Source of the DNA: Pseudomonadota bacterium
GTDB taxonomy: Bacteria > Pseudomonadota > Gammaproteobacteria > Burkholderiales > Burkholderiaceae_C
Direction: 5' to 3'
Assembly: GCA_020161065.1 (NCBI GenBank)
Contig: JAIUPH010000011.1
Coordinates: 186,001-250,000 of the forward strand
Length of the DNA: 64,000 bases
Shown: in pieces, positions 25,879 through 36,150 of the stretch
Layout of the letters: each line of letters begins with the position of its first letter
Numbering within the stretch: position 1 is the first letter of the stretch
Position numbers and translations under genes: made by a program
The notes under the pieces: model-generated
What the model saw: only the letters and a program-made list of their open reading frames with translations
Told to the model about the DNA's origin: nothing
The model's database searches: none

Positions 25879-25969
25879 GGAGGGATGGATGAGTGGTTTA
25901 AGTCGCACGCCTGGAAAGCGTGTGGGGGTTAACAGCCCCCCGCGGGTTCGAATCCCGCTCCCTCCGCCA
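25879..25969 (+). tRNA. tRNA-Ser(GGA)
   Basis: The gene folds as a class II tRNA. The acceptor stem GGAGGGA/TCCCTCC is paired, the anticodon stem CACGC/GCGTG encloses loop CTGGAAA with anticodon GGA, and there is a long variable arm (GGGGG...CCCCC). The T-arm is CGGGTTCGAATCCCG, and CCA is encoded at 25967-25969. It decodes UCC/UCU serine codons. The last 14 bases belong to the 17-bp att repeat, so the integrated element preserves a complete tRNA. Confidence 0.97.
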
Positions 25970-25972
25970 GGA
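25956..25972 (+). repeat. attL: 17-bp core within the tRNA-Ser 3' end
   Basis: CGCTCCCTCCGCCAGGA spans the last T-arm and acceptor bases, CCA and three more bases. An identical copy lies at 36134-36150; flanking bases differ on both sides. Confidence 0.92.
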
Positions 25973-26038
25973 TACTCCCTCCCCAAGGTGCACGAGCGTG
26001 CAGCAAGGGTGCAGGTAGAGAAGTCCTAAGCTGTTGAT

Positions 26039-26067
26039 TTGACAGCGGTTTTCGACTCACACACACT
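26039..26067 (+). promoter_or_regulatory. Possible integrase promoter
   Basis: A perfect -35 TTGACA (26039-26044) is followed after 17 bp by the weak -10 CACACT (26062-26067), about 105 bp before the integrase ATG. The -10 matches only three consensus positions. Confidence 0.4.
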
Positions 26068-26117
26068 CGCGTAAGTGCACCGAAGGCGAAGTCCGGTGCG
26101 CCAGCCTCGCGCCGCTT

Positions 26118-26153
26118 ACTGGCGGACGGACTGGCGGACGGACTGGCGGACGG
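26118..26153 (+). repeat. Left arm-type repeats: three 12-bp units
   Basis: ACTGGCGGACGG occurs three times head to tail at 26118-26129, 26130-26141 and 26142-26153, just before the integrase gene. The same unit recurs twice inside the right end at 36064-36087 in the same orientation. Their presence near both att sites suggests binding sites for the integrase N-terminal domain or an excisionase. Confidence 0.75.
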
Positions 26154-26170
26154 ACCAAGCGAGGTGACGC

Positions 26171-27505
26171 ATGTCGAAGGTCTCAAAGCGTGGCGCGAAG
26201 CTGCATCTGCTGACCGCGCGGGAAGTGCTGAACGCCGGTGACGGCGACCACGGTGACGGCGGCGGGCTGTACCTTCGCGTCCGGGATTCAGACCGTTCGG
26301 CGGCCTGGATCTACCGCTTCACATCGCCTACAGGCCGGCGCCGGGAAATGGGCCTTGGCGCCGCGCACCGCGCCAACGCTCAGCAAGCCGGTGCCTCGCT
26401 GACCGGCGCGCGCGACCTGGCGCACCGCTGCCGCGAGCAACTGCGTGCCGGCATCGACCCTATCGATGCCCGTGACGGTCGGCGCGACGCGCAGCGCGAG
26501 GCCGAAGCCGCCAAGCGATCCGCCGAAGCCCTGGACCATTGGACGCTCGCCCGCTGTGCACGCGACTACTTCGAGCGCGCGATCGAGCCCAGCCGTACGC
26601 CCAAGCACGCCGCGCAATGGATCAGCTCGCTTGAAAACCACCTCGCGCCCGAGCTGTGGCATGCGCATGTCGACAGCATCGAGCCGCCGGCGCTGCTGGC
26701 CGCGCTGCTGGCCGTGAAGCCGCACGAGCGCGCGCGCAACCTCAAGGGCGACAAGCTGCCCGAGACGATGCAGCGCCTCCGCCAACGGCTGGACGCGACC
26801 TACGAAGACGCGATCTTTCACCGGCGCGCGACCAAGAACCCGGCCGCCGCCGTCAAGCGCAAGATGCGCGAGGCCGCGCCCAAGCGCGACCGCGGCCAGT
26901 TCCGCGCGCTGCCGTACAAGGAAGCGCCAGCCTTCATGGCCGTGCTGCGCCAGGCCGAGGGCATCGCCGCGCGCTGCCTGGAATTCGCGATGTTGACTGC
27001 TGCGCGCACCAGCGAGGCATTGCTGGCCGAGTGGAGCGAGTTCGACCTCGATGCGGCCGTCTGGGTCGTGCCACCGAACCGCATGAAGTCCGGCGAGGCG
27101 CATACGATCTTCCTGTCGCCGCGGGCCGTCGACATCCTCAAGGACATGCAGCGCCTCGGCGAGCGCCATGTCTTTCCGACCAACGCCAAGCGCGATGTCG
27201 ACGGCGCGTCGGCGGCGATGTCCAACATGTCCATGCTGGTGACGCTCGACCGGCTCGGCTATCGCGACCGCACGACCGTGCACGGCCTGTGCCGCGCGAC
27301 GTTCAGCACCTGGGCCAACGAGACCGGAGCGGCGCGGCCCGACGTGATCGAGGCGTGCCTTGCGCACGAGGAATCCAACCGCGTGCGCGCGGCCTACAAC
27401 AGGTCGAAGTTCAACGACGAGCGGCGTGCACTGCTGGAAGCCTGGGCAGAGTACCTGGCGAGGCCTGCAGCGCCCGTGATCGAGCTTGAGAGCAAGCGAG
27501 CCTGA
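26171..27505 (+). CDS. Tyrosine-type site-specific integrase (P4-like)
   Basis: The 444-residue protein has the N-terminal DUF4102-like arm-binding region (GDGGGLYLRVRDS...WIYRF), a SAM-like core-binding domain near 125-215 and a C-terminal catalytic domain. All catalytic residues are visible: Arg279 (TAARTSE), Lys306, His371 and Arg375 (HGLCR), His399 (LAHEE) and nucleophile Tyr409 (AAYNRSKF). It would catalyse recombination between the tRNA-Ser att site and the element. It lies about 200 bp from attL and is transcribed inward, the usual arrangement for tRNA-targeting islands and P4-like satellites. Confidence 0.95.
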   Translation: MSKVSKRGAKLHLLTAREVLNAGDGDHGDGGGLYLRVRDSDRSAAWIYRFTSPTGRRREMGLGAAHRANAQQAGASLTGARDLAHRCREQLRAGIDPIDARDGRRDAQREAEAAKRSAEALDHWTLARCARDYFERAIEPSRTPKHAAQWISSLENHLAPELWHAHVDSIEPPALLAALLAVKPHERARNLKGDKLPETMQRLRQRLDATYEDAIFHRRATKNPAAAVKRKMREAAPKRDRGQFRALPYKEAPAFMAVLRQAEGIAARCLEFAMLTAARTSEALLAEWSEFDLDAAVWVVPPNRMKSGEAHTIFLSPRAVDILKDMQRLGERHVFPTNAKRDVDGASAAMSNMSMLVTLDRLGYRDRTTVHGLCRATFSTWANETGAARPDVIEACLAHEESNRVRAAYNRSKFNDERRALLEAWAEYLARPAAPVIELESKRA

Positions 27506-27630
27506 CCGTACCGCCGCCCGGCCGGATGCCGGGCACCGTGGCCGCTGCGGACCAGCGGCAACAAGGCGGCCCTGGTGGGTGGTAGAGCACCTGCCAGGGC
27601 CTGGCCAAGACCGATGAAAGGAACATCGAC

Positions 27631-27882
27631 ATGGTTACCTCAATTGTCCCCGCACCGGCGCCGCGCGCCGATCTGCGGACCCAATCCAACCCGCAGGCGT
27701 TCCGCCGCCACATGGCCCGTTTCGAGTTGGCCAAGACCCGGTTGCTGCTGGCCGAGGGCAACCCCGAGCGCGCGGCAGCCGCGTTTGCCCGCGCCAAGAC
27801 GTGGCGGTGGGATCCGGCGATGCAGGCGGCGCCGGCGGCCGACGCAGCCGACCAAGCGAATGGAGGGGTGAATCATGGCTGA
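27631..27882 (+). CDS. Small hypothetical protein of the satellite
   Basis: The 83-residue protein is unrecognised. It has a helical Arg/Ala-rich middle (FRRHMARFELAKTRLLLAEGNPERAAAAFARA) that resembles a TPR-like helix pair and an Ala/Asp-rich tail. It has no signal peptide. Its stop overlaps the next gene by 8 bp in the sequence ATGGCTGA, so the next gene is probably translated by reinitiation. It is the first gene of a three-gene overlapping run after the integrase. Confidence 0.6.
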   Translation: MVTSIVPAPAPRADLRTQSNPQAFRRHMARFELAKTRLLLAEGNPERAAAAFARAKTWRWDPAMQAAPAADAADQANGGVNHG

Positions 27883-28114
27883 CAAGACCGAGTTCGTAGC
27901 CACGCTGCCATTGCATGAAGCACGCTGCAGCCTGGAGTTGAAGATGGACCAACTGAAAGCCATCACATCCTTCCTGGTGGTCGGCGAGCTCTACCAGATG
28001 GCGGACGGCGTACAGGCCGGCGTACTCGGCCTGGTGTCTGACCTGACCGATGAGGTGGCAGCTTTGGCGGCTGTGGTGGACCGGGCAGTCGGCGGCGAGG
28101 TGAGCCATGGCTGA
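27875..28114 (+). CDS. Small helical protein MADK-1
   Basis: The 79-residue protein starts MADKTEF and is predicted mostly helical (KMDQLKAITSFLVV; VSDLTDEVAALAAVVDR). It is similar in start, length and helix pattern to the next gene product, suggesting tandem duplication. Its start overlaps the previous stop, and its stop overlaps the next start, by the same 8-bp sequence ATGGCTGA. No function is known; small helical proteins at this location in satellites are often early regulatory or interference factors, which is inference only. Confidence 0.6.
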   Translation: MADKTEFVATLPLHEARCSLELKMDQLKAITSFLVVGELYQMADGVQAGVLGLVSDLTDEVAALAAVVDRAVGGEVSHG

Positions 28115-28289
28115 CAAAGCCTGCTTCGACCTGCTGGCCACCAAGGCCGAGCAGTTGCAGGATCTGATTGCAGTCCTGGCCGTGCTGGAAACCGCGGGCG
28201 AAGCGGAAAAGTTGGCGCGGCTGGCCTACATCGCCGAGGATCTGGTGGCTGAGGTCGTCCGCCTCGTCTACGAGGTCTTGCCGAAGTAG
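28107..28289 (+). CDS. Small helical protein MADK-2
   Basis: The 60-residue protein starts MADKACF and continues with helices (KAEQLQDLIAVLAVLET; EDLVAEVVRLVYEV). Its alignable core with the preceding gene is K-x-(D/E)-QL near residue 15-23 and a C-terminal helix ending in EV..L...V. The start is coupled to the upstream stop by an 8-bp overlap. A strong UUCG-loop hairpin follows 26 bp downstream and probably ends this operon. Confidence 0.6.
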   Translation: MADKACFDLLATKAEQLQDLIAVLAVLETAGEAEKLARLAYIAEDLVAEVVRLVYEVLPK

Positions 28290-28315
28290 CCAGCCACGGG
28301 CTGACCGGCACCACC

Positions 28316-28335
28316 GCGGGCCCTTCGGGGCCCGC
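28316..28335 (+). terminator. UUCG-tetraloop hairpin after the small-gene operon
   Basis: GCGGGCCC-TTCG-GGGCCCGC is a perfect 8-bp stem closed by a very stable UUCG loop, followed by TGCTTGTT. It sits just after the third small gene and is a likely terminator, though the T-tract is imperfect. Confidence 0.6.
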
Positions 28336-28499
28336 TGCTTGTTCGGCCGGTGCTGCCGCCTTACCGCGAGCCGATGGACTGCCATCAGAGTGCAATGGCG
28401 CCGCTGGGCACTTTGGTGTAAAGTCGTCGCTATTCGGCGAGACCGAATTCTGAATCCCTCTGTCGCGCGTACCTAGCTTGAGAAGGTGGTCGCAAGGCG
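28336..28499. other. Intergenic stretch upstream of the structured RNA candidate
   Basis: No gene is visible in this part of the 384-bp gap before alpA. It is less GC-rich than its surroundings and contains TGTAAAGT near 28417-28424 as a possible -10 region without a good -35. The promoter of the RNA candidate and alpA is expected here. Confidence 0.4.
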
Positions 28500-28633
28500 T
28501 TGACGGGGGTTCTAAGGCTAGTTCGAAGACACCGTGCCCCGGCCCTGGATGGGGCGGCTGGATGGCCTGCACGGGCGTAGAACTAATCCCTGGATGGGGA
28601 AGCGTTGAGCTAACTGCTCGCGCTTCCCTTTTT
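28500..28633 (+). ncRNA. Candidate structured RNA or attenuating leader before alpA
   Basis: This non-coding stretch holds a nested hairpin (CCGTGC 28532-28537 with GCACGG 28569-28574, and GGCC 28541-28544 with GGCC 28564-28567). It also holds three copies of CTGGATGG (28545, 28558, 28590), and two mutually exclusive pairings of TAGAACTA (28578-28585) with GTTCTA (28509) or TAGTTC (28519). It ends in a strong intrinsic terminator. The structures are read directly. By analogy with the RNA-based immunity of P4 (CI RNA) and P1 (C4 RNA), it could be an antisense immunity RNA or a leader controlling alpA. Confidence 0.45.
28597..28633 (+). terminator. Intrinsic terminator upstream of alpA
   Basis: GGGAAGCG (28597-28604) pairs perfectly with CGCTTCCC (28621-28628), with an inner GAGC/GCTC stem, followed by five Ts. 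It ends 40 bp before the alpA start, so it either closes a small RNA gene or attenuates alpA. Confidence 0.8.
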
Positions 28634-28673
28634 CGTTTCTGGGTGGCGCGGGCCTCGAAAACACGAGGTTTCA

Positions 28674-28952
28674 ATGTCCGCACACTCGACGACATCCACC
28701 CCCGCCGCGCTGCTATCCGAAACTGAATTCCGCGGATTGCTCCGCGTGAGCGAGCGCAAATTCAAAGCACTCCGCGCGGCAGCAGTGATCCCCCCTCCGC
28801 TGGAACTGGGGCCGCGCGTGGCGCGCTGGACCCACGATGACTATTTGAAGGTTGTCGAAGCGCTGCCGCGTCGCGAGAAGGCGCCCGAACCGCAGCGCCT
28901 GCACGATGGCCGCCGCGCGCGCATCGAACGGATGAAGGTGACTGGCCAATGA
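28674..28952 (+). CDS. AlpA-like helix-turn-helix regulator/excisionase
   Basis: The 92-residue protein has the winged helix-turn-helix pattern of AlpA/excisionase proteins: LLSETEFRGLLRVSERKFKALRAAAVIPPPLELGPRVARWTHDDYLKV, with the wing formed by the PRVARW segment. AlpA proteins in P4-like satellites and PICIs activate element genes or act as the recombination directionality factor. The ATG has GAGG five bases upstream. It opens an operon whose members overlap by 4 bp (next gene at 28949) and run through primase and ATPase. The upstream terminator and RNA candidate suggest RNA-level control. Confidence 0.75.
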   Translation: MSAHSTTSTPAALLSETEFRGLLRVSERKFKALRAAAVIPPPLELGPRVARWTHDDYLKVVEALPRREKAPEPQRLHDGRRARIERMKVTGQ

Positions 28953-29158
28953 ACGCGCCCGACATCGCCATCAATGCCGAGCGCAAGGCCTGGGCAACAG
29001 TACAGGCACAGTGCGCGTTAGCAGGCTTCAAGGCTGACCTGATCGACAACGACGATGGTTGCCTGATGCTGATCGTTAGCCGCTGGGCGTTGACTCGCAG
29101 CTTTTCGTTGCCGGCGGATGTGGAGAGCTGGCTGCGGCGCGTCGGGGCGCCGGCGTGA
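28949..29158 (+). CDS. Small hypothetical protein between alpA and primase
   Basis: The 69-residue protein is unrecognised. It begins MNAPDIAINAERKAW and has a small alpha/beta pattern with LIDNDDGCLMLIVSRWALTRSF followed by a final helix DVESWLRRV. It overlaps alpA by 4 bp (ATGA) and the primase start by one to four bases, so it is part of the same translational unit. Similar small genes commonly sit at this place in satellite replication operons; no function is proposed. Confidence 0.6.
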   Translation: MNAPDIAINAERKAWATVQAQCALAGFKADLIDNDDGCLMLIVSRWALTRSFSLPADVESWLRRVGAPA

Positions 29159-29982
29159 TGTCCGGCGCTATCGACTGGCACGGCCCGCGCCGGCAGCCGT
29201 GCCCGGCCTGCGGCCGCAACGAGCGCGACAGGACGCTGGGCATCACGCTGAACGATGACGGCACCGGCGTGGCGCATTGCTTCAGGTGCGAGTACGTCAG
29301 CACGCTGCGCGACGACCGGCCCAGCGCCAAGCCCGCAACGGTGCGCCTGGCGGCCCCTACACGCCGCGAACCGGCGCCGGCGCTGTCTACGCACTGGTTT
29401 GACTTCTTCGCGCGCCTGGAGCCCGTCGCAGGCCCCGCGCAGGCCTACCTGAAGGCCAGGCGCTGCGTCGTCCCGCCCTTTGACGGCGCCCTCCGGTGGC
29501 ATCCCAACCTGCGCCATCCGAGCGGCCACACCGGCCCGGCGCTGGTCGCGCTTACCACCGATGCTGTGACGCGCGCGCCGCTGACGTTGCACCGAACGTG
29601 GGTTCAGGCCGACGGCACCAAGGCCCCGGTCGACCCCCCGCGCCTGCTGCTGAGCGGCCATCGGAAAGCCGGCGGCGTGATCCGGCTGTGGCCCGACGAA
29701 GCCGTCACCGCCGGCTTGGCTGTGGCGGAAGGCATCGAGACAGCGCTCGCGCTCGCGCACGCTTACCAACCGGCCTGGGCCTGCATCGATGCCGGCAACC
29801 TGGCCGCGCTGCCGGTGCTCGGCGGCATCGAGTCGCTGCTGATTGCAGCCGACCATGACGACGCCGGCATCAAGGCCGCGCAGGCCTGCGCCGCGCGCTG
29901 GGCGGCTGCCGGGCGTGAAGTGCATGTCGCGATGCCCGAGCAGCGCAAGTCAGACTTCAACGACGTGGCGGTGGCCGCATGA
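29158..29982 (+). CDS. Zinc-ribbon/toprim primase
   Basis: The 274-residue protein has an N-terminal zinc ribbon with Cys15, Cys18, Cys41 and Cys44 (CPACG ... CFRC), the P4-type primase zinc-binding domain. A toprim domain carries VAEGIETALA and IAADHDDAG, which contain the conserved acidic residues. Such proteins make RNA primers for element replication. The helicase domain found in the fused P4 alpha protein is absent; a separate ATPase gene follows with a 4-bp overlap. ATG at 29158 is preferred over GTG at 29155. Confidence 0.88.
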   Translation: MSGAIDWHGPRRQPCPACGRNERDRTLGITLNDDGTGVAHCFRCEYVSTLRDDRPSAKPATVRLAAPTRREPAPALSTHWFDFFARLEPVAGPAQAYLKARRCVVPPFDGALRWHPNLRHPSGHTGPALVALTTDAVTRAPLTLHRTWVQADGTKAPVDPPRLLLSGHRKAGGVIRLWPDEAVTAGLAVAEGIETALALAHAYQPAWACIDAGNLAALPVLGGIESLLIAADHDDAGIKAAQACAARWAAAGREVHVAMPEQRKSDFNDVAVAA

Positions 29983-31004
29983 CGATCGCGGGCGTACACC
30001 GGCTTGTCAACACGGCGAGACGGGTGCCGGCGCCAACGGCACAGCCGGACGAGGGATCGCAGCATCGCGGCAGGTGCCTGGCTTCAGAGCCGGCCGGCTT
30101 TGATGCCGCCGACCTCGTGTTGATGGACATGCCTGACCCGGTGTTCCTATGCCGGCCTTGGGTCTCGGAAGGTGTGGCGCTGATCGTCGGGCGCCCGAAG
30201 ATCGGCAAGACCACGCTGCTGCGTCAAGTGGCCGTGCAAGGCAACGTCGGCGGCAAGCTGCTGGGTTCGGATTGCATATCCGCTGAAGTCCTGTTCCTGT
30301 CGCTGGAAGAAGGCCCGCGCCTGATGCGCACGAAGCTGCGTTCAATGAACCTGTCCGCAGAAGCGCTCAGGGGCATCCGTGTTGAATTCGAGTGGCCGCA
30401 GGGTCTGCCTGGCGTCGAACGCATCCGGGAATGGCTGCAAGCCCGACCGGACCCCAAGCGCATGCCAGTGGTGATCGTCGACAGCCTCACCCGCTTTCGT
30501 ACACCGCCGCCAGAGCGCGGCATGGCATTCGCCGCCGACTATGAGGCCGTGAAGATGCTGGCTGACCTGGCCAAGGAGTTTCCCGGCCTGGCCGTGCTGG
30601 TCCTGCATCACACAACCAAGGCGATGCCCGACGACCCGGTGGCCGCAATCAGTGGCACCTATGGGCTGACGGCGGCGGCCGACAACTACATGATCCTGCT
30701 GAAGCAAGGGCAGAAGTTCAGGCTGCACTGCGGCGGCCGCTTGTGGGCCAGCGACGACGCCGACTTCGAGCTGGTGCGCGAGGCCGGTGGCTGGGCGCTT
30801 GGCGGGCTGTGGAGTTTCGGCGTGGAGTCAATCTCACCGAAGCAGACGCAGGTGCTCGACCTACTCAAAGCGGGCGCCAAGACGGCCGCAGCACTGGCCA
30901 AGGCAACAGGCCAGGAGGACAGCGCCATGCGCCATATGTGCGCCGCCATGGAGCGCAAGGGACTCATCTGCCGGATCGCCAACGGCTGGGGAATTGCGCA
31001 GTGA
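29979..31004 (+). CDS. RepA-like RecA-fold ATPase with C-terminal winged helix
   Basis: The 341-residue protein has a Walker A motif GRPKIGKT at 71-78, Walker B MPVVIVDSL at about 163, and LVLHHTTK further on, the pattern of the RSF1010 RepA-like hexameric helicase/RecA-fold family. The last 60 residues (SPKQTQVLDLLKAGAKTAAALAKATG... MERKGLICRI) form a winged helix that could bind DNA. It overlaps the primase gene by 4 bp. Together they look like a minimal replication module, with the repeat array directly downstream as the probable origin. Role as helicase is inferred. Confidence 0.85.
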   Translation: MTIAGVHRLVNTARRVPAPTAQPDEGSQHRGRCLASEPAGFDAADLVLMDMPDPVFLCRPWVSEGVALIVGRPKIGKTTLLRQVAVQGNVGGKLLGSDCISAEVLFLSLEEGPRLMRTKLRSMNLSAEALRGIRVEFEWPQGLPGVERIREWLQARPDPKRMPVVIVDSLTRFRTPPPERGMAFAADYEAVKMLADLAKEFPGLAVLVLHHTTKAMPDDPVAAISGTYGLTAAADNYMILLKQGQKFRLHCGGRLWASDDADFELVREAGGWALGGLWSFGVESISPKQTQVLDLLKAGAKTAAALAKATGQEDSAMRHMCAAMERKGLICRIANGWGIAQ

Positions 31005-31026
31005 CCTCCCCTTCTCTCTCTTCTTC

Positions 31027-31087
31027 TTCACGTTCTTCACGTATTCACGTTCTTCACGAAGTTCACGGTGAGCGTGAAAAGCGTGAA
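31027..31087. repeat. Iteron-like array of TTCACG/CGTGAA, candidate replication origin
   Basis: Seven copies of the hexamer occur: five as TTCACG starting at 31027, 31036, 31044, 31053 and 31062, and two inverted (CGTGAA at 31073 and 31082). Spacing is 8-11 bp, mostly 9. The stretch is AT-richer than the surrounding DNA and begins 23 bp after the ATPase gene. Regularly spaced iterons next to replication genes are typical of origins; P4's alpha protein binds iterons containing GGTGAACAG, which shares GTGAA. An operator array is the alternative. Confidence 0.65.
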
Positions 31088-31154
31088 GTGTGTGAGGGGG
31101 GGAACGGTTGCGCGCCTTGCCGAGCTTGCCTCGGCGCGAAAAATCGGCGCCCGG

Positions 31155-31166
31155 TTGTCTAGACAA
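31155..31166. promoter_or_regulatory. Perfect 12-bp palindrome TTGTCTAGACAA
   Basis: This palindrome lies between the iteron array and the capsid operon, about 120 bp before the first capsid-region gene. It is a candidate operator for a dimeric regulator; its binding protein is unknown. Confidence 0.45.
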
Positions 31167-31284
31167 GCAAGCCCGCATAGACAGATGAATCCTCCGCCAA
31201 ACCCCCAGCACCGGCGCGGCTGGCGCGACGCCGCCCGGCGCGTCCGCCAGCCAGTCCACCACCTAGCCGCAACTGAAAGACACC

Positions 31285-31449
31285 ATGCTTGAACGACTGC
31301 GCACCTTGTGGCGCCGCATCAGTCCCCACCATCGCCGCATCGCCGCAAAGCGTCGGCTCGAAGCCGTGCTGCACGAACACGGCATTTCCAGAACGCGCGC
31401 CGCGCGGATCGCCAGCCACTACCTCAAAAAGGACGCTCCCCATGCCTGA
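31285..31449 (+). CDS. Small basic protein preceding the capsid genes
   Basis: This 54-residue frame (MLERLRTLWRRISP... ending KKDAPHA) is highly basic and probably helical, with the segment HGISRTRAARIASHYL resembling a helix-turn-helix. Its stop overlaps the start of the next gene in ATGCCTGA (8 bp), the same style of coupling seen among the small genes upstream, which supports its reality. It is too short for family assignment; a DNA-binding regulator of the capsid operon or a small structural protein are both possible. Confidence 0.5.
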   Translation: MLERLRTLWRRISPHHRRIAAKRRLEAVLHEHGISRTRAARIASHYLKKDAPHA

Positions 31450-32059
31450 AGCCACCCAGACCCACGAGACCACGCCCGAGCCGACCGGCGACGAGGTGAA
31501 GAACCCGGCCGCCGTGCTGCTGAAGAACAAGGAACTGCTGGCGCGCAATGCCGAGCTGCAGGCGCGCGTCACCGAACTCGAAGGACAGGCCCAGGCGCTG
31601 ACCGAGGCACACAGCAAGCTGCAGGCCGACTTCGCCGACTTTCACATCCGGCGTCCGCTGGCGCGCGTGGCCGAGCAAATCTCGCCGGTGCCGGACCTGT
31701 GGATGGCCGAGTTCTCGAAGCTGTACGACGTGCGCCAGGTCGGCGACGATCTGCGAGTCTTCGACAAGAAGACGGGCGAAATGTGCGTCGTGCCTGAAGG
31801 CACGCGCACGGCTGGCAAGCCCATTGATCTGACGCCCGAAAGCCTGTGGGCGTTTCTCGATCGGGGCGTCAGCGAGAGGAGCAAGAAGGACTCTGAGTGT
31901 GATCCTCAGGCCGCCCGATTCAACTGGTTGATGCGCTACCTCGGGCCCTCGGGCGGTGGTGCAGTCGGCAGCTTCGGCAGCGGCTTGAAGGGCGTGATGC
32001 CAAGCGCACCGGCGCCCAGTCCTGAGCCCGCATCGACACCGCCGCTCGGCTTGCGCTGA
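31442..32059 (+). CDS. Coiled-coil protein upstream of the capsid gene, possible scaffold
   Basis: The 205-residue protein has an acidic, Thr/Pro/Glu-rich N-terminus, then a coiled coil (ELLARNAELQARVTELEG... about residues 25-65) and a globular part with DLWMAEFSKLYDVRQVGDDLRVFDKKTG. It ends in a Gly/Ser/Pro-rich tail. Scaffolding proteins of HK97-fold phages are typically coiled-coil proteins encoded just before the major capsid protein, as here, but I cannot show homology. A capsid decoration or DNA-binding role is the alternative. The start ATG at 31442 is supported by the coupling overlap. Confidence 0.65.
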   Translation: MPEATQTHETTPEPTGDEVKNPAAVLLKNKELLARNAELQARVTELEGQAQALTEAHSKLQADFADFHIRRPLARVAEQISPVPDLWMAEFSKLYDVRQVGDDLRVFDKKTGEMCVVPEGTRTAGKPIDLTPESLWAFLDRGVSERSKKDSECDPQAARFNWLMRYLGPSGGGAVGSFGSGLKGVMPSAPAPSPEPASTPPLGLR

Positions 32060-32190
32060 GCAGCCTAACCGCCTAACATTACGGCACCGCCTGGCCACGC
32101 TGGGCGGCACCCCTCTTGGGCGCCACGCGCCTGCGCTGACCGTTCACGACGGCCTGCGAATCAACCCCCTTGATTCCGAAAGGCCCTACC

Positions 32191-33183
32191 GTGGCTGTCA
32201 CCCAAATTGCGGACGTAGTCGTCCCGACCGAATTCACTGCCTTCCTCGTTGAGAACGTTGCAACCAAGGCCGCGCTGGTCCAGTCCGGGCTGATGGCGCG
32301 CAATGCAGCCATCGATGCCCAACTGAAGGCCGGCGCGGACAGCTTCAGCGTGCCCTTCTGGCGCGATCTGTCCGACGACGCTGCCGACCTCGCGAACGAC
32401 AACCCGGCATCCATCGCCACGCCGCGCAAGCTCGGATCCGGCAAGCAGCTCATTCGCAAGGCCTTCCTGCACGCCGGCTGGTCGGCGATGAACCTGGCGT
32501 CCGAACTGAGCGGCAGCAACGCATTGACCCGTATTCAGGAGCGTGTCGATGCCTACTGGACGCGGGAGCTTCAGCGCCGGCTGATCGCCTCTCTGAACGG
32601 CATCCTAGCCGACAACGCTGCGAACGACGGCGGCGACATGATCATCGATATCAGCGGCGCGGCCGGGACGGCAGCGAACTTCAGCGCGGGCGCTGTCATA
32701 GATGCTGCTGCAACCTTGGGCGACTCGCTGCGCGACCTGACCACGATCGGATTGCACTCCTCAGTCTACAAGGCTGCGCTGAAGTCCGATCTGATCCAGA
32801 CTGTTCCGGCATCGCAGGGCGGCTTCATCCAGACCTTCCGCGGCCTGGCCATCCTGATCGACGATGAACTGCCGCTGGCCGCCGGCGTGTACACGTCAGT
32901 CCTGTTCGGCGCCGGCGCTTTCGGCTTCGGCGTGAGCCAACCGCGTGTGTCCGCTGGCACCGAAATCGAGAGCGTCCCCGGCGCCGGTAACGGCGGCGGC
33001 CAGCAGATCCTGCATTCGCGGGTGAACCTGGCTGTGCACCCGGCCGGGTTTCAGTGGCGCGAAGCCAGCGTCGCAGGCGAAAGCCCGAGCGTCGCCGAGT
33101 TGGCCATGGCGGCCAATTGGGATCGCGTCGCGGGGTCGCGCAAGCACGTCCAGATCAGCGCTCTGAAGCACAAGCTGCCGTGA
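32191..33183 (+). CDS. Phage major capsid (coat) protein
   Basis: The 330-residue protein starts (GTG) MAVTQIADVVVPTEFTAFLVENVATKAALVQSG. It contains the region SVPFWRDLSDDA...TPRKLGSGKQLIRKAFLHAGWSAMNLA, a pattern shared by phage coat proteins of the HK97 fold annotated as major capsid protein. It lacks an obvious N-terminal delta domain with protease site, consistent with a separate scaffold protein and no head protease gene nearby. AAAGG precedes the GTG. Its end overlaps the next start by 4 bp (GTGA). It would form the shell of the element's particle; family assignment is from pattern recognition. Confidence 0.8.
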   Translation: MAVTQIADVVVPTEFTAFLVENVATKAALVQSGLMARNAAIDAQLKAGADSFSVPFWRDLSDDAADLANDNPASIATPRKLGSGKQLIRKAFLHAGWSAMNLASELSGSNALTRIQERVDAYWTRELQRRLIASLNGILADNAANDGGDMIIDISGAAGTAANFSAGAVIDAAATLGDSLRDLTTIGLHSSVYKAALKSDLIQTVPASQGGFIQTFRGLAILIDDELPLAAGVYTSVLFGAGAFGFGVSQPRVSAGTEIESVPGAGNGGGQQILHSRVNLAVHPAGFQWREASVAGESPSVAELAMAANWDRVAGSRKHVQISALKHKLP

Positions 33184-33674
33184 CGACGCGCGGCAAGCTG
33201 CCTGGGCGCGTGAAGGCGCCCGAGGACAAGCGGTGCGTCGGGCGGCCGATGAAGATGCCGCCGCCCGATGCGCTGGAAGTCATCCGCGCGACCACCTCCA
33301 CCGGTGCGACCAAGCGCGGGGTTGCGATGGCGCTGGGCGTGAACCTGGACGTGCTTGCGCGCTGGCTGGCCGAGCACCCCGAGCTGGCTGAGGCCTTCGC
33401 CGAGGGACGCGAGACCGAACGCAGGGTCCTTCACGCTCGTCTGTTCGAGCTTGCCACGAAGGGCGAAGGCCGGGACTCGCTCATCGCGGCGATGTTCTTG
33501 CTGAAGTCGCGGCACGGGTACGTCGAAGGCGAGAAGGACGCGCAAACCAATCGCGTGAGCATCAACTTCCAGCTTCCAGGCGCACAGCCGCTTAACACGC
33601 TCGTTATCGACAATGATGCAGATCGAATTCACCGACTTCCAGCAGCGCCTGCTGAGTCTGCCCGAAGAGGTTGA
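33180..33674 (+). CDS. Terminase small-subunit candidate
   Basis: The 164-residue protein has a helix-turn-helix (ATTSTGATKRGVAMALGVNLDVLARWLAEHPEL) followed by helices with FELATKGEGRDSLIAAMFLLKSRHGYVEGE, a pattern frequent in phage small terminase-like proteins. The small subunit recognises the packaging site and activates the large subunit. The GTG start overlaps the capsid stop by 4 bp, and the gene's last 62 bp overlap the large terminase gene in another frame. In most phages the terminase genes precede portal and capsid genes; here they follow the capsid. Confidence 0.7.
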   Translation: MTTRGKLPGRVKAPEDKRCVGRPMKMPPPDALEVIRATTSTGATKRGVAMALGVNLDVLARWLAEHPELAEAFAEGRETERRVLHARLFELATKGEGRDSLIAAMFLLKSRHGYVEGEKDAQTNRVSINFQLPGAQPLNTLVIDNDADRIHRLPAAPAESARRG

Positions 33675-34971
33675 CGTTTTCGCCGGTGGCGGGCGCGGCG
33701 GCGGCAAGTCTTACGCGCTGGCGCTGCTGGCCCTGCGTCACTGCGAGCAGTACGGCGAGCGTGCGCGGGTGCTCTACCTGCGCAAGACTTACGCGGGCCT
33801 GCGCGACTTCGAGCTGGTCACGCGCGAGCTGTTCGGGCTGGTCTATGGCACGGACGCGCGCTACAACGGCAGCGAACACCTGTGGCGGCTGCCCAATGGT
33901 GGCTACATCGAGCTAGGCCAGCTTGAGACTCACGCCGACTATGCCAAGTACCAAGGCCGCTCGTTTACGCTGCTGCTGATCGATGAGGCTGGCCAGTACG
34001 CGCAGCCCAACTTGTTGGACTTGATGCGCTCCAACCTGCGCGGCGCGAAGGACATCCCGATTCGCGTTGTCGTGGCCGCGAACCCGGGCGGCCCGGGGCA
34101 TCACTGGATCGCCAAGCGCTACGTATTTCAGGCCGGACCTTGGAAGCCCTTCCGCGAGGGCACGAGCAAGCGCTTGTGGGTCTACGCGCCGTCGACGTAC
34201 GACGGTAACCAGTTCATCGACCGCGATCAATACCGCGTTCAACTGGAAAGCGCATGCCCGACCGACCCGGAGCTGCTGCGCGCGTGGCTGACCGGTGACT
34301 GGGCCGTGAACCGCGGCGCCTACTTCGCCATGGTGCTGGACGAGTCGCGCAACGCCTTTGACCCCTGGCAGGCCATCCCCGAAAGTTGGGACTATTGGCT
34401 GGCGCACGACTTCGGCAGCGCGGCACCGAGCGTCACCTACGTCGTGGCCCAGTCGCCAGGCGATCAGCACGAGGGCGCGTTCTACCCGCGCGGATCCATC
34501 GCGCTGGTCGATGAGCTTGCGGCCGTGCGGCGCGACAACCTGAACATGGGCTTGGGTTGGACCGCGGCGACCACCGCGGAAGAGGTCATCGCCATGTGCA
34601 AGCGCTGGGACATCAAGCCGCGCGGCGTGGCCGACGATGCGTGCTTCGCGAAGTCGGGCCTTAGCTCGGGCAGCATCGCCGACGAATTCGCGCGCAAGGG
34701 CGTGACCTTCGAGCCCGCGAAAAAGGCCGACCGCATCACGGGGTGGCAGTTGATGCGTCGCATGCTGGCCGACGCCGGCAAGCCCGATGTGCCTGGGCTG
34801 TACATCAGCCGCGCCTGCAGCTACTTCTGGTCGACCGTGCCTTACCTGGCACGCGATCAGAAGCGCGTTGAGGACGTGGACAGCACCGGGCCTGACCATG
34901 CCGCTGATGCGTGCCGTTATGGGCTGCTGCGGCTGCGCCGCGCTGCGTCGGTGGGGCCCTTGCGGATCTGA
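33613..34971 (+). CDS. terL: Terminase large subunit
   Basis: The 452-residue protein is a complete packaging motor: Walker A GGGRGGGKS at 25-33, Walker B LLLIDEAG at 120-127, and a coupling motif near AANPGG. The C-terminal RNase H-like nuclease has Asp266 in HDFGSAAP, Asp in GVADDACF near 338 and DHAADACRY near 432. Walker A has the deviant form common in TerL. Nothing suggests truncation. It would translocate DNA through a portal vertex, but no portal gene is present in the element, so the portal must come from elsewhere. Confidence 0.93.
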   Translation: MMQIEFTDFQQRLLSLPEEVDVFAGGGRGGGKSYALALLALRHCEQYGERARVLYLRKTYAGLRDFELVTRELFGLVYGTDARYNGSEHLWRLPNGGYIELGQLETHADYAKYQGRSFTLLLIDEAGQYAQPNLLDLMRSNLRGAKDIPIRVVVAANPGGPGHHWIAKRYVFQAGPWKPFREGTSKRLWVYAPSTYDGNQFIDRDQYRVQLESACPTDPELLRAWLTGDWAVNRGAYFAMVLDESRNAFDPWQAIPESWDYWLAHDFGSAAPSVTYVVAQSPGDQHEGAFYPRGSIALVDELAAVRRDNLNMGLGWTAATTAEEVIAMCKRWDIKPRGVADDACFAKSGLSSGSIADEFARKGVTFEPAKKADRITGWQLMRRMLADAGKPDVPGLYISRACSYFWSTVPYLARDQKRVEDVDSTGPDHAADACRYGLLRLRRAASVGPLRI

Positions 34972-35211
34972 AGTGGCCTGCGCGCCGAGCGCCGCACGGG
35001 CGACCTGCTGTAGTGGGTGTGCGCGCCGGTTTCGGACGGTTGGCTTGTGTCGGCTGCCTCGCGCCCCCTAACGCCGGTCATTGGGGCACGTCCCTACCGG
35101 TTTCGCGCGGCGCGCACGGCGCAGTTTAGGGCGTGCCGGAGCGACTCCCGCGCGCGCTGCCGCGACGCTCATGCTGCAGCCGCCATTCTAGCGCGGGCTA
35201 CAGTCGCGCGC
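34972..35211. other. Gap between terL and the SRAP gene
   Basis: This 240-bp stretch has no supported gene and no clear repeat. The last 25 bp contain TACAGT as a possible -10 about ten bases before the SRAP ATG, which would make that mRNA nearly leaderless. Confidence 0.35.
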
Positions 35212-35919
35212 ATGTGCTCGAACTACATCGCCGTCACCCGCACGGACCGGCTGCTCACCTTCTTCGGCGTGGCGCGCGACCCGAGCGAGCCGCCGCCCGA
35301 GTTCAGCGCCGAGATCTGGCCGCAGCGCCTCGCGCCCTTCATCCGCCGCGCCGAAGACGGCAGCGGCAATCGGCAGATCGAGGCCGGCCAGTTCGGGCTG
35401 CTGCCCTTCTTCGCCAAGGAGCTGGCCTACGGCAGGCGCACGTACAACGCGCGCAGCGAGACCGTCGCCACGCTGCCCAGCTTCCGCGATGCCTGGAAGC
35501 GCGGCCAGCGCTGCATCGTGCCGGCCGAGGCCATCTTCGAGCCCTGCTGGGAGACCGGCACGGCCGTGCGCTGGCGCATCCAGCAGGCGGGCGAGGTGCC
35601 GATGGGCATCGCCGGCGTCTGGGCGCGGCATCCCAAGCTGACCACGAAGGATGGCAAGCCGATGCTCAGCTTCGCCATGCTGACCGTCAACGCCGATGGC
35701 CATCCGGTGTTCAAGCGCATGCACAGGCCCGAGGACGAGAAGCGCATGGTCGTGATCCTCGACCCCGCAGAGTACGACCGCTGGCTGCAGTGCACCGTGG
35801 CCGAGGCGGCCAGCTTCTTTCGGCAGTGGACGGGCGCGCTCGACGCCTTCCCCGCACCGCTGCCACCGCGCCGACGCCAGGGCGCAGATGAGGCTGCAGA
35901 GCCACCGGACGACGCTTGA
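35212..35919 (+). CDS. SRAP-family protein (YedK/HMCES type)
   Basis: The 235-residue protein starts MCSNYIAV, so after Met removal Cys2 is N-terminal, as required to form the thiazolidine crosslink with abasic sites. Other conserved segments are YNARSET, IVPAEAIFEP and the His/Arg region FKRMHRPEDEKRMVVIL. SRAP proteins shield abasic sites in single-stranded DNA and are linked to the SOS response. It lies between terL and attR, so it is carried by the element, possibly protecting single-stranded replication intermediates. It could also be a passenger from a past host. Confidence 0.88.
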   Translation: MCSNYIAVTRTDRLLTFFGVARDPSEPPPEFSAEIWPQRLAPFIRRAEDGSGNRQIEAGQFGLLPFFAKELAYGRRTYNARSETVATLPSFRDAWKRGQRCIVPAEAIFEPCWETGTAVRWRIQQAGEVPMGIAGVWARHPKLTTKDGKPMLSFAMLTVNADGHPVFKRMHRPEDEKRMVVILDPAEYDRWLQCTVAEAASFFRQWTGALDAFPAPLPPRRRQGADEAAEPPDDA

Positions 35920-36063
35920 CCGCACCTTGATCATCGAGTTCGCATCGTGCGACTTCGATCCATGCTTGAGATTGACCGCCTTGGCCGCCCGCATCCCTTC
36001 ATCCGCGGCACGCCGCAGCATCTCGCCGGCCTTGCGCTGGGCGCGGCAGGCGGGGCGGAATCA

Positions 36064-36087
36064 AGTGGCGGACGGACTGGCGGACGG
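36064..36087 (+). repeat. Right arm-type repeats: two 12-bp units
   Basis: AGTGGCGGACGG (one mismatch) and ACTGGCGGACGG lie side by side about 50 bp before attR. They match the three units near attL in sequence and orientation, supporting a role in integration or excision. Confidence 0.75.
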
Positions 36088-36133
36088 ACGAAAAACGGTC
36101 CGCAGAGCCTTATTTCATGCGGGTGTTGACAGA

Positions 36134-36150
36134 CGCTCCCTCCGCCAGGA
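36134..36150 (+). repeat. attR: 17-bp core
   Basis: CGCTCCCTCCGCCAGGA is identical to 25956-25972. To its right the host sequence resumes with the terminator expected for the tRNA gene. Confidence 0.92.

Follow-up and report, generated by a model that had tools for sequence, protein, structure and literature searches.

RESULTS

An island with capsid and terminase genes and no detected portal gene

The window analyzed here is a 64,000-nucleotide stretch of contig JAIUPH010000011.1 (assembly GCA_020161065.1, positions 186,001 to 250,000) from a member of the Burkholderiaceae_C. Between positions 25956 and 36150, it contains a one-way island whose assigned genes are all located on the + strand and which is flanked by two identical 17-bp direct repeats, the left one spanning the 3' end of a tRNA-Ser(GGA) gene. 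A hand estimate puts the probability that the tRNA region shares any exact 17-bp stretch with the remainder of the GC-rich window at about 0.003. The island carries genes for integration, replication, a phage capsid, and both terminase subunits (Table 1), and no portal, connector, or tail gene was found in it by PHROG and Pfam scans or with a portal hidden Markov model (HMM). An element that is bounded by attachment (att) sites, carries integrase and replication genes, and is devoid of tail and lysis genes corresponds to the general description of a phage satellite, and this is what the island presents.

Much of this content had been recognized in a sequence-only reading of the window. The perfect att repeats and the single gene direction that it described were borne out, and Pfam and PHROG matches upheld its integrase, primase, RepA-like ATPase, capsid, small and large terminase (TerS and TerL), and SRAP genes. 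The integrase belongs to a type that we take to be P4/CP4. What had been called alpA gave a weak PHROG match and none in Pfam, and it is listed here as a putative regulator. The gene for a "coiled-coil protein" was present on the + strand, and its product could be refined to a scaffold family, as described below. The SRAP-domain protein is probably cargo. Further small + open reading frames (ORFs) of 69 and 54 amino acids (aa) are located between the AlpA-like gene and the primase gene and between the ATPase gene and the coiled-coil gene, respectively.

Table 1. Features of the island and its boundaries (window positions)
Feature	Position	Strand	Basis
tRNA-Ser(GGA)	25879..25969		Left repeat spans its 3' end
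attL	25956..25972	+	17-bp direct repeat across 3' end of tRNA-Ser(GGA)
Tyrosine integrase	26171..27505	+	PF13356, PF22022, PF00589; phrog_1, 2.5e-41
Three small ORFs (83, 79, and 60 aa), no family	27631..28289	+	ORF list; Pfam and PHROG scans
Small putative excisionase/AlpA-like regulator (weak)	28674..28952	+	phrog_66, E 0.024; no Pfam match
Toprim primase	29155..29982	+	PF23639, PF13362; phrog_510, 1.5e-36
RepA/helicase-like AAA_25 ATPase	29979..31004	+	PF13481, 2.2e-14
Iteron-like array, putative origin	31024..31092		TTCACG/CGTGAA 7 times within 100 bp
Predicted head scaffolding protein ("coiled-coil protein")	31442..32059	+	Family-level hhalign to phage scaffolds; relative L018 matches phrog_206
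Major capsid protein, SPP1 gp13 type	32191..33183	+	phrog_247, 9.7e-91; PF20036 Gp13-like, 1.8e-10
TerS	33180..33674	+	phrog_309, 8.9e-11
TerL	33613..34971	+	phrog_2, 6.2e-31; PF03237
SRAP-domain protein	35212..35919	+	PF02586, 9.6e-33
attR	36134..36150	+	Second copy of 17-bp repeat

Search for portal, connector, and tail genes

The earlier claim that the island provides a shell and a motor without a portal or tail was supported by several searches. The portal HMM gave no match within the window. Among island ORFs of at least 290 aa, the sole one on the + strand without an HMM assignment is a long-start form of the SRAP gene. Three minus-strand ORFs (359, 387, and 328 aa), which lie wholly or mostly opposite the integrase, primase, and TerL genes, had no PHROG match, and neither had alternative-frame + ORFs of 120, 139, and 277 aa or a 183-aa ORF over attR. 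Within the limits of these searches, a misread portal or tail gene was rejected. No protease or connector was matched among the window genes and ten further window ORFs, a scan that a small divergent connector could escape, and Pfam and PHROG scans yielded no HNH match in the window.

Twenty-four elements were examined for portals, comprising 19 att-bounded islands (that of the window included) and five elements without such boundaries. They hold 136 ORFs of at least 290 aa, none of which matched two portal HMMs or a head-morphogenesis HMM. Integrase, ATPase, helicase, primase, capsid, or one of two TerL-group HMMs matched 88 of these ORFs, with exactly one capsid ORF in every element (24/24). 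All 16 unassigned + ORFs were scanned with Pfam or PHROGs; five had no family, and the others were primases, DUF3631, topoisomerase, tape measure proteins, a restriction enzyme, a replicase, SRAP, and one family of unknown function. The 32 unassigned minus ORFs are mostly located opposite + genes, and the five that were scanned gave zero matches. The relatives' other + ORFs (129 of 131 scanned) matched 115 PHROG and 39 Pfam families, and neither a protease nor a connector was among the 25 most frequent of each.

As a positive control, the portal HMM (four training phages, E 0.05) matched ten further phage-type contigs (L041, L050 to L055, L058, L059, and L062, with L052 to L055 sharing one score) and no satellite locus. 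Six phage-labelled contigs (L010, L011, L040, L056, L057, and L060) gave no match; by eye, L010 and L011 have a portal-sized ORF near a terminase-like ORF.

Two att-bounded islands contain a tape-measure-like gene (L014:11542-13020 and L023:11128-12801). Tape measure genes in satellites are published for PLEs and some capsid-forming phage-inducible chromosomal islands (cf-PICIs) (PMC12987554).

Capsid and scaffold

The capsid profile aligned with solved structures along virtually its entire length of 328 positions, namely with PDB entries 4an5 (4e-68, positions 1 to 327) and 6r3a (2.3e-67, positions 3 to 327). By this full-length profile match to solved members, the protein belongs to the SPP1 gp13 family. 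Its GTG start was chosen via alignment with relatives. The best-ranked phage capsid in INPHARED was 40% identical, and all 716 records remained below 60%.

The coiled-coil gene is located immediately before the capsid gene. Taken singly, its product had no PHROG match, no Pfam match better than 0.03, and none by a phage-scaffold HMM. At the level of the family, 19 satellite sequences aligned by hhalign with six phage sequences (96.1%, E 3.2e-9); for two of the latter, the database record gives scaffold as a name or note, and the other four were taken by their position before the major capsid protein (MCP) gene. The corresponding protein of relative L018 matches phrog_206, "head scaffolding protein," at 7.4e-8. 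From this family homology and its place before the MCP gene, the coiled-coil protein is assigned as the head scaffold. By BLAST, the gene family was present in 18 of the 24 elements, window included; the phage-scaffold HMM added L026 (4.2e-6) and, weakly, L020 (0.0011) and L030 (0.018), and no scaffold was assigned in L013, L014, and L023. A structural model of the scaffold (predicted local distance difference test [pLDDT], 77.5), on which no conclusion here relies, consists of a long helix plus a small domain.

Functional procapsids of SPP1 require the portal gp6, the scaffold gp11, and the capsid gp13, and these three proteins suffice; when gp6 is missing, procapsids of normal and smaller size form (PMC6316719). 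By bringing its own scaffold besides the capsid, the island supplies two members of this three-protein set. This minimal set has no protease, and its lack in the island is therefore expected.

Terminase

TerS is 28 to 60% identical in relatives. In an alignment of 19 TerL sequences, most residues are invariant in the motifs that we take to be those of the ATPase and nuclease. The IMG/VR TerL search kept 80 of 111 related loci, drawn from 268 pattern matches; among the loci kept, the closest phage kin of the satellite TerL was the fragment L114 (L114:184-6434), at 60% identity. It carries a portal, a morphogenesis protein, and a scaffold, and its capsid-like ORF was not seen by the MCP HMM.

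Several observations concern TerL genes outside the island. TerL frames of L101, L103 to L107, L110, and L130 are broken by in-frame TAG codons, seemingly at shared positions in several contigs, a pattern that suggests either TAG recoding or shared decay. A similar TerL (51 to 72%) is encoded in L098, L100, L109, L112, and L117, in which no capsid of the PF20036/SPP1 gp13 type was matched; tape-measure-like proteins occur in these five loci as well, and L112 also has a scaffold. In L020, a 284-aa ORF between capsid and terS has a weak match to a TerL family (7.8e-4).

Distribution, gene order, and phylogeny of related islands

The capsid profile identified 31 loci among 238 GTDB pattern matches and 27 among 74 in IMG/VR. 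GTDB loci of at least 54% identity derive from Rhodobacterales, Burkholderiales, Pseudomonas, Halomonas kin, Marinobacter, Lysobacter kin, and others, the higher ranks of these hosts being in part our assumption, and the att-bounded islands of the family span Alpha-, Beta-, and Gammaproteobacteria. A repeat of a tRNA 3' end that encloses the capsid gene was present in 18 of 24 relatives tested and was not found in the other six (L002, L009, L016, L027, L035, and L039). With that of the window, the resulting 19 islands measure 9,519 to 12,958 bp (median, 10,195 bp). Among 399 genomes drawn from the window's taxonomic order, no relative was found besides the window's own genome.

The order capsid-terS-terL applies to 12 of the 19 islands (in L020, 1.9 kb separates capsid and terS). 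Four others (L019, L034, L037, and L048) are arranged terS-terL-scaffold-capsid. The remaining three (L014, L023, and L026), all from Rhodobacterales, contain another TerL group that is not seen by BLAST from the window TerL; both groups match phrog_2. Phages XAJ2, MMDA13, 83-24, and NP1 display the order terS-terL-portal-(other)-scaffold-MCP, in which the scaffold is named or noted in two phages and placed by position in two. The order in L019, L034, L037, and L048 equals that of these four phages minus the portal and the genes next to it.

In the capsid tree, 40 satellite capsids form one clade (100/99) apart from 19 phage capsids. The tree was midpoint rooted, its bootstrap had not settled, and a warning of long phage branches applies. 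It leaves out L003, L012, L053, L054, and L055 by name and L039, L041, L042, and L043 due to a kept capsid stretch that was too short (L039 is split over two frames, and L041 is a two-piece match). L061, identical to phage rows L060 and L062, is not counted among the 40 satellite rows.

Selection was estimated for seven satellite pairs as the ratio of nonsynonymous to synonymous substitution rates (dN/dS), using the Nei-Gojobori method in our own script. Values were 0.05 to 0.20 for capsid, 0.05 to 0.09 for TerL, 0 to 0.05 for TerS in five pairs, and 0.11 to 0.18 for the scaffold in four pairs (L033/L035 and three among L034, L037, and L048); for the scaffold of L033/L025, dS was saturated. 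The head genes are thus mostly under purifying selection. Integrases of the otherwise near-identical islands L033 and L035 share only 34% identity, which indicates that modules are exchanged.

These comparisons bear on whether the island could be a decayed full prophage whose portal and tail have been lost, one of two outcomes that the sequence-only reading had named as refuting it. Such a history could be read from the four satellites that keep the phage gene order minus the portal. It is nevertheless extremely improbable and was ruled out, because capsid and terminase without a detected portal recur in 18 further tRNA-bounded islands, the capsids form a single clade, dN/dS of capsid and TerL is low, and no portal was found in the relatives either, five elements without att boundaries among them.

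Three contigs, L002, L008, and L049, are circular and fit excised or packaged molecules. Circular forms of 7.8 to 8.7 kb with scaffold and capsid and without a TerL or portal match were noted for L008, L049, L165 (CP067839.1), and L166 (NZ_CP093253.1); L008 has a rolling-circle replicase (Rep_1), and two of these forms are complete plasmids of Klebsiella and Moellerella. In L028 (L028:13157-15179), a gene for a MamI-like restriction enzyme is located on the distal side of TerL beside what by eye appears to be a DNA methyltransferase gene, a pair that may represent restriction-modification cargo.

Putative replication origin

Between the ATPase and the head genes, TTCACG occurs in both orientations with 7 copies within 100 bp, compared to at most 4 copies of any 6-mer in five shuffles. 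The densest 6-mer cluster is located directly behind the replication ATPase in 5 of the 24 elements (window, L019, L021, L026, and L047), with differing words. In L013, L023, and L025, it lies inside the end of a replication-region ORF, and in L030 and L031 an equally dense cluster is positioned beyond TerL instead. Most other elements of the 24 had no cluster clearly above shuffles. The TTCACG cluster of the window may represent the replication origin.

Search for a helper

The search for a helper comprised the window's genome and 18 further host genomes, with an E value threshold of 1e-5 for the capsid. Of these 19 genomes, 18 have a single phrog_247 capsid, that of the satellite, and G414 has two, each from a satellite (L034 and L037). 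A resident helper with the same capsid was therefore not found, the only second copy being that of a second satellite. The search of the rest of the window's genome, proposed in the sequence-only reading, revealed no helper. An HK97-type portal (PF04860) was detected elsewhere in 10 of the 19 genomes, including that of the window. The portal gene of the window's genome is located on the window's own contig (G000:C37:527978-528967), and another prophage may thus be present there. The lack of a resident match fits a virulent or nonresident helper or a prophage of another type.

Portal sequences diverge strongly, and together with the HK97-type portals found elsewhere in the host genomes this could point to a small or divergent portal that escaped recognition, whether in the island itself or at another site of the host chromosome. 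We regard this as very improbable, since the island ORFs of at least 290 aa are either assigned or, without a PHROG match of their own, located opposite an assigned gene, and the portal HMMs matched none of the 136 ORFs of the 24 elements. The smallest portals known to us have about 310 aa.

DISCUSSION

Proposed assembly on a helper portal

From the observed gene content, conservation, att sites, and family structure, we infer helper dependence, portal borrowing, a small shell, and packaging of the element's own DNA. The reading that we favor, by a narrow preference, is that the island is a phage satellite which builds a small shell on the portal of a helper, packages its DNA with its own terminase, and makes use of the helper's neck and tail. 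Since the related islands share the portal gap, the head would probably be built around a portal from another phage. When a helper phage is active, the satellite would excise at the tRNA-Ser att site and replicate from the iteron array, using the primase and the RepA-like ATPase that it encodes. The satellite capsid protein and scaffold, whose genes are present, would then be made and polymerize on a portal ring made by the helper, resulting in a shell that, judging from element length only, would be small enough for about 10 kb. TerS and TerL of the satellite would select its DNA and dock on the helper portal. Because the portal is the helper's, the helper connector and tail would then fit unchanged. 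The dependency would sit at the portal and, as seems somewhat more probable than the opposite, one step further in than in cf-PICIs, which have their own portal and connectors and borrow tails.

A number of results weigh against this proposal. No helper was identified, and the 19 host genomes contain no phrog_247 capsid other than those of satellites, no SPP1_portal (PF05133; 0/19), and no Chi-like portal (0/19, with 2/2 control phages matched). An HK97-type portal may or may not fit an SPP1-type shell. Among the 25 INPHARED phages listed of 621, no TerL exceeds 34% identity, and the terminase and the shell of the satellite may have different phage origins, in which case the portal partner cannot be deduced. 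The dN/dS of TerS reached 0.25 (L033/L025), and that of the scaffold 0.26 (L018/L036) and 0.42 (L029/L036, with dS above 1.4). Structure prediction did not yield a usable capsid model (pLDDT, 35). Cut contigs account for many of the 40 tree rows, and the absence of a portal was judged from the 24 elements.

Two other functions can be considered for the head genes. The satellite capsid and scaffold could coassemble with a related helper capsid and force a smaller, mosaic shell, with TerS and TerL redirecting packaging. In SaPIbov5, Ccm, a homologue of the helper capsid, forms the pentamers and the helper protein the hexamers of a T=4 shell, and the procapsids contain the helper portal protein (PMC8569155); phages of the window's capsid family exist as well, as the 716 INPHARED records show. 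Ccm alone forms no shells (PMC8569155), whereas the window island adds a separate scaffold to its capsid, and neither the distance to any phage capsid nor the host genomes without a nonsatellite copy favor coassembly, which we hold to be unlikely. Alternatively, capsid, scaffold, and terminase could poison or divert phage head assembly as a defense rather than serve the island's own transfer. The authors who describe the Vibrio element TG93, which has capsid protein E, a protease, and a small terminase, interpret it as a disruptor of head assembly (PMC13230959), and helper portals could be titrated by a shell and motor that come alone. Interference is less probable still than a mosaic shell, given that self-transfer is indicated by the integrase, primase, att sites, and iteron-like array, by the conserved TerL motifs, and by the circular forms and the narrow range of element sizes.

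For the family as a whole, assembly on a helper portal could mean that a widespread, monophyletic group of proteobacterial satellites provides its own shell, scaffold, and motor and borrows a single adaptor, the helper portal, on which a small shell made wholly by the satellite is nucleated; we consider the chances of this to be about even. If the proposal is true, portal-shell compatibility, not tail compatibility, sets the usable helpers. A portal is regarded as nucleating the shell, gauging its size, and docking the motor, and as having to match its shell. A lineage with shell, scaffold, and motor under selection and no portal found is a natural test of portal promiscuity. A PF20036 capsid without a portal could also serve as a marker for satellites that portal-based definitions may miss.

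Comparison with known systems

SPP1 and phages XAJ2, MMDA13, Achromobacter 83-24, and NP1 share with the island the capsid family, a homologous scaffold, and an adjoining terminase. They differ in being complete phages with portal, neck, and tail, and the best-ranked phage capsid is 40% identical. The latter four are presumably Chi/Yua-like siphophages. Capsid, scaffold, and terminase are likewise encoded by the Streptomyces satellites MulchRoom and MiniFlayer. P4-like satellites use the external scaffold Sid on a P2-type helper and are not known to have a capsid or a TerL of their own, whereas the window island has both and is thus not P4-like.

The nearest precedent is Ccm of SaPIbov5, a satellite-encoded capsid homologue that forms shells with the helper portal; it works only when mixed with helper capsid, whereas the window island supplies capsid, scaffold, TerS, and TerL (PMC8569155). 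TG93, an episomal PISP of Vibrio crassostreae, resembles the island in its capsid gene and small terminase, with no portal named in the accessible account, and differs in its protein E capsid, its protease, its plasmid-borne state, and the function proposed by its authors (PMC13230959). PLE11 also replaces selected parts of the virion and relies on the helper for the remainder, but the parts replaced are the tape measure and baseplate hub, a chaperone is encoded in addition, and the capsid proteins are the helper's (PMC12987554). Charybdis elements, about 4.6 kb, marine, and without known hallmark genes, were considered and are unrelated (PMC12324425).

Known capsid-forming satellites were said in the sequence-only reading usually to bring portal, protease, and connectors as well, in agreement with the literature: cf-PICIs carry genes for MCP, protease, portal, and head-tail connectors and depend on a helper for tails alone (PMC10690885; PMC13230959). 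Like them, the island is an integrated satellite that has its own MCP and terminase genes and would depend on a helper for the rest. It differs in that no portal, protease, connector, or HNH endonuclease was found in the window, which places it outside the cf-PICI definition, and in its capsid type, PF20036/SPP1 gp13, as opposed to the PF05065 used for the capsid tree with cf-PICIs in the Vibrio study (PMC13230959). By analogy, it would work like a cf-PICI at a deeper level of dependency, a comparison toward which we lean slightly. Within the accessible parts of the open-access literature searched, no satellite family is described with capsid, scaffold, and terminase but no portal, and relative to this literature, the island represents a new form of capsid-encoding satellite. 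If the proposal holds, the family bridges satellites that only resize the helper shell and cf-PICIs that bring the whole head.

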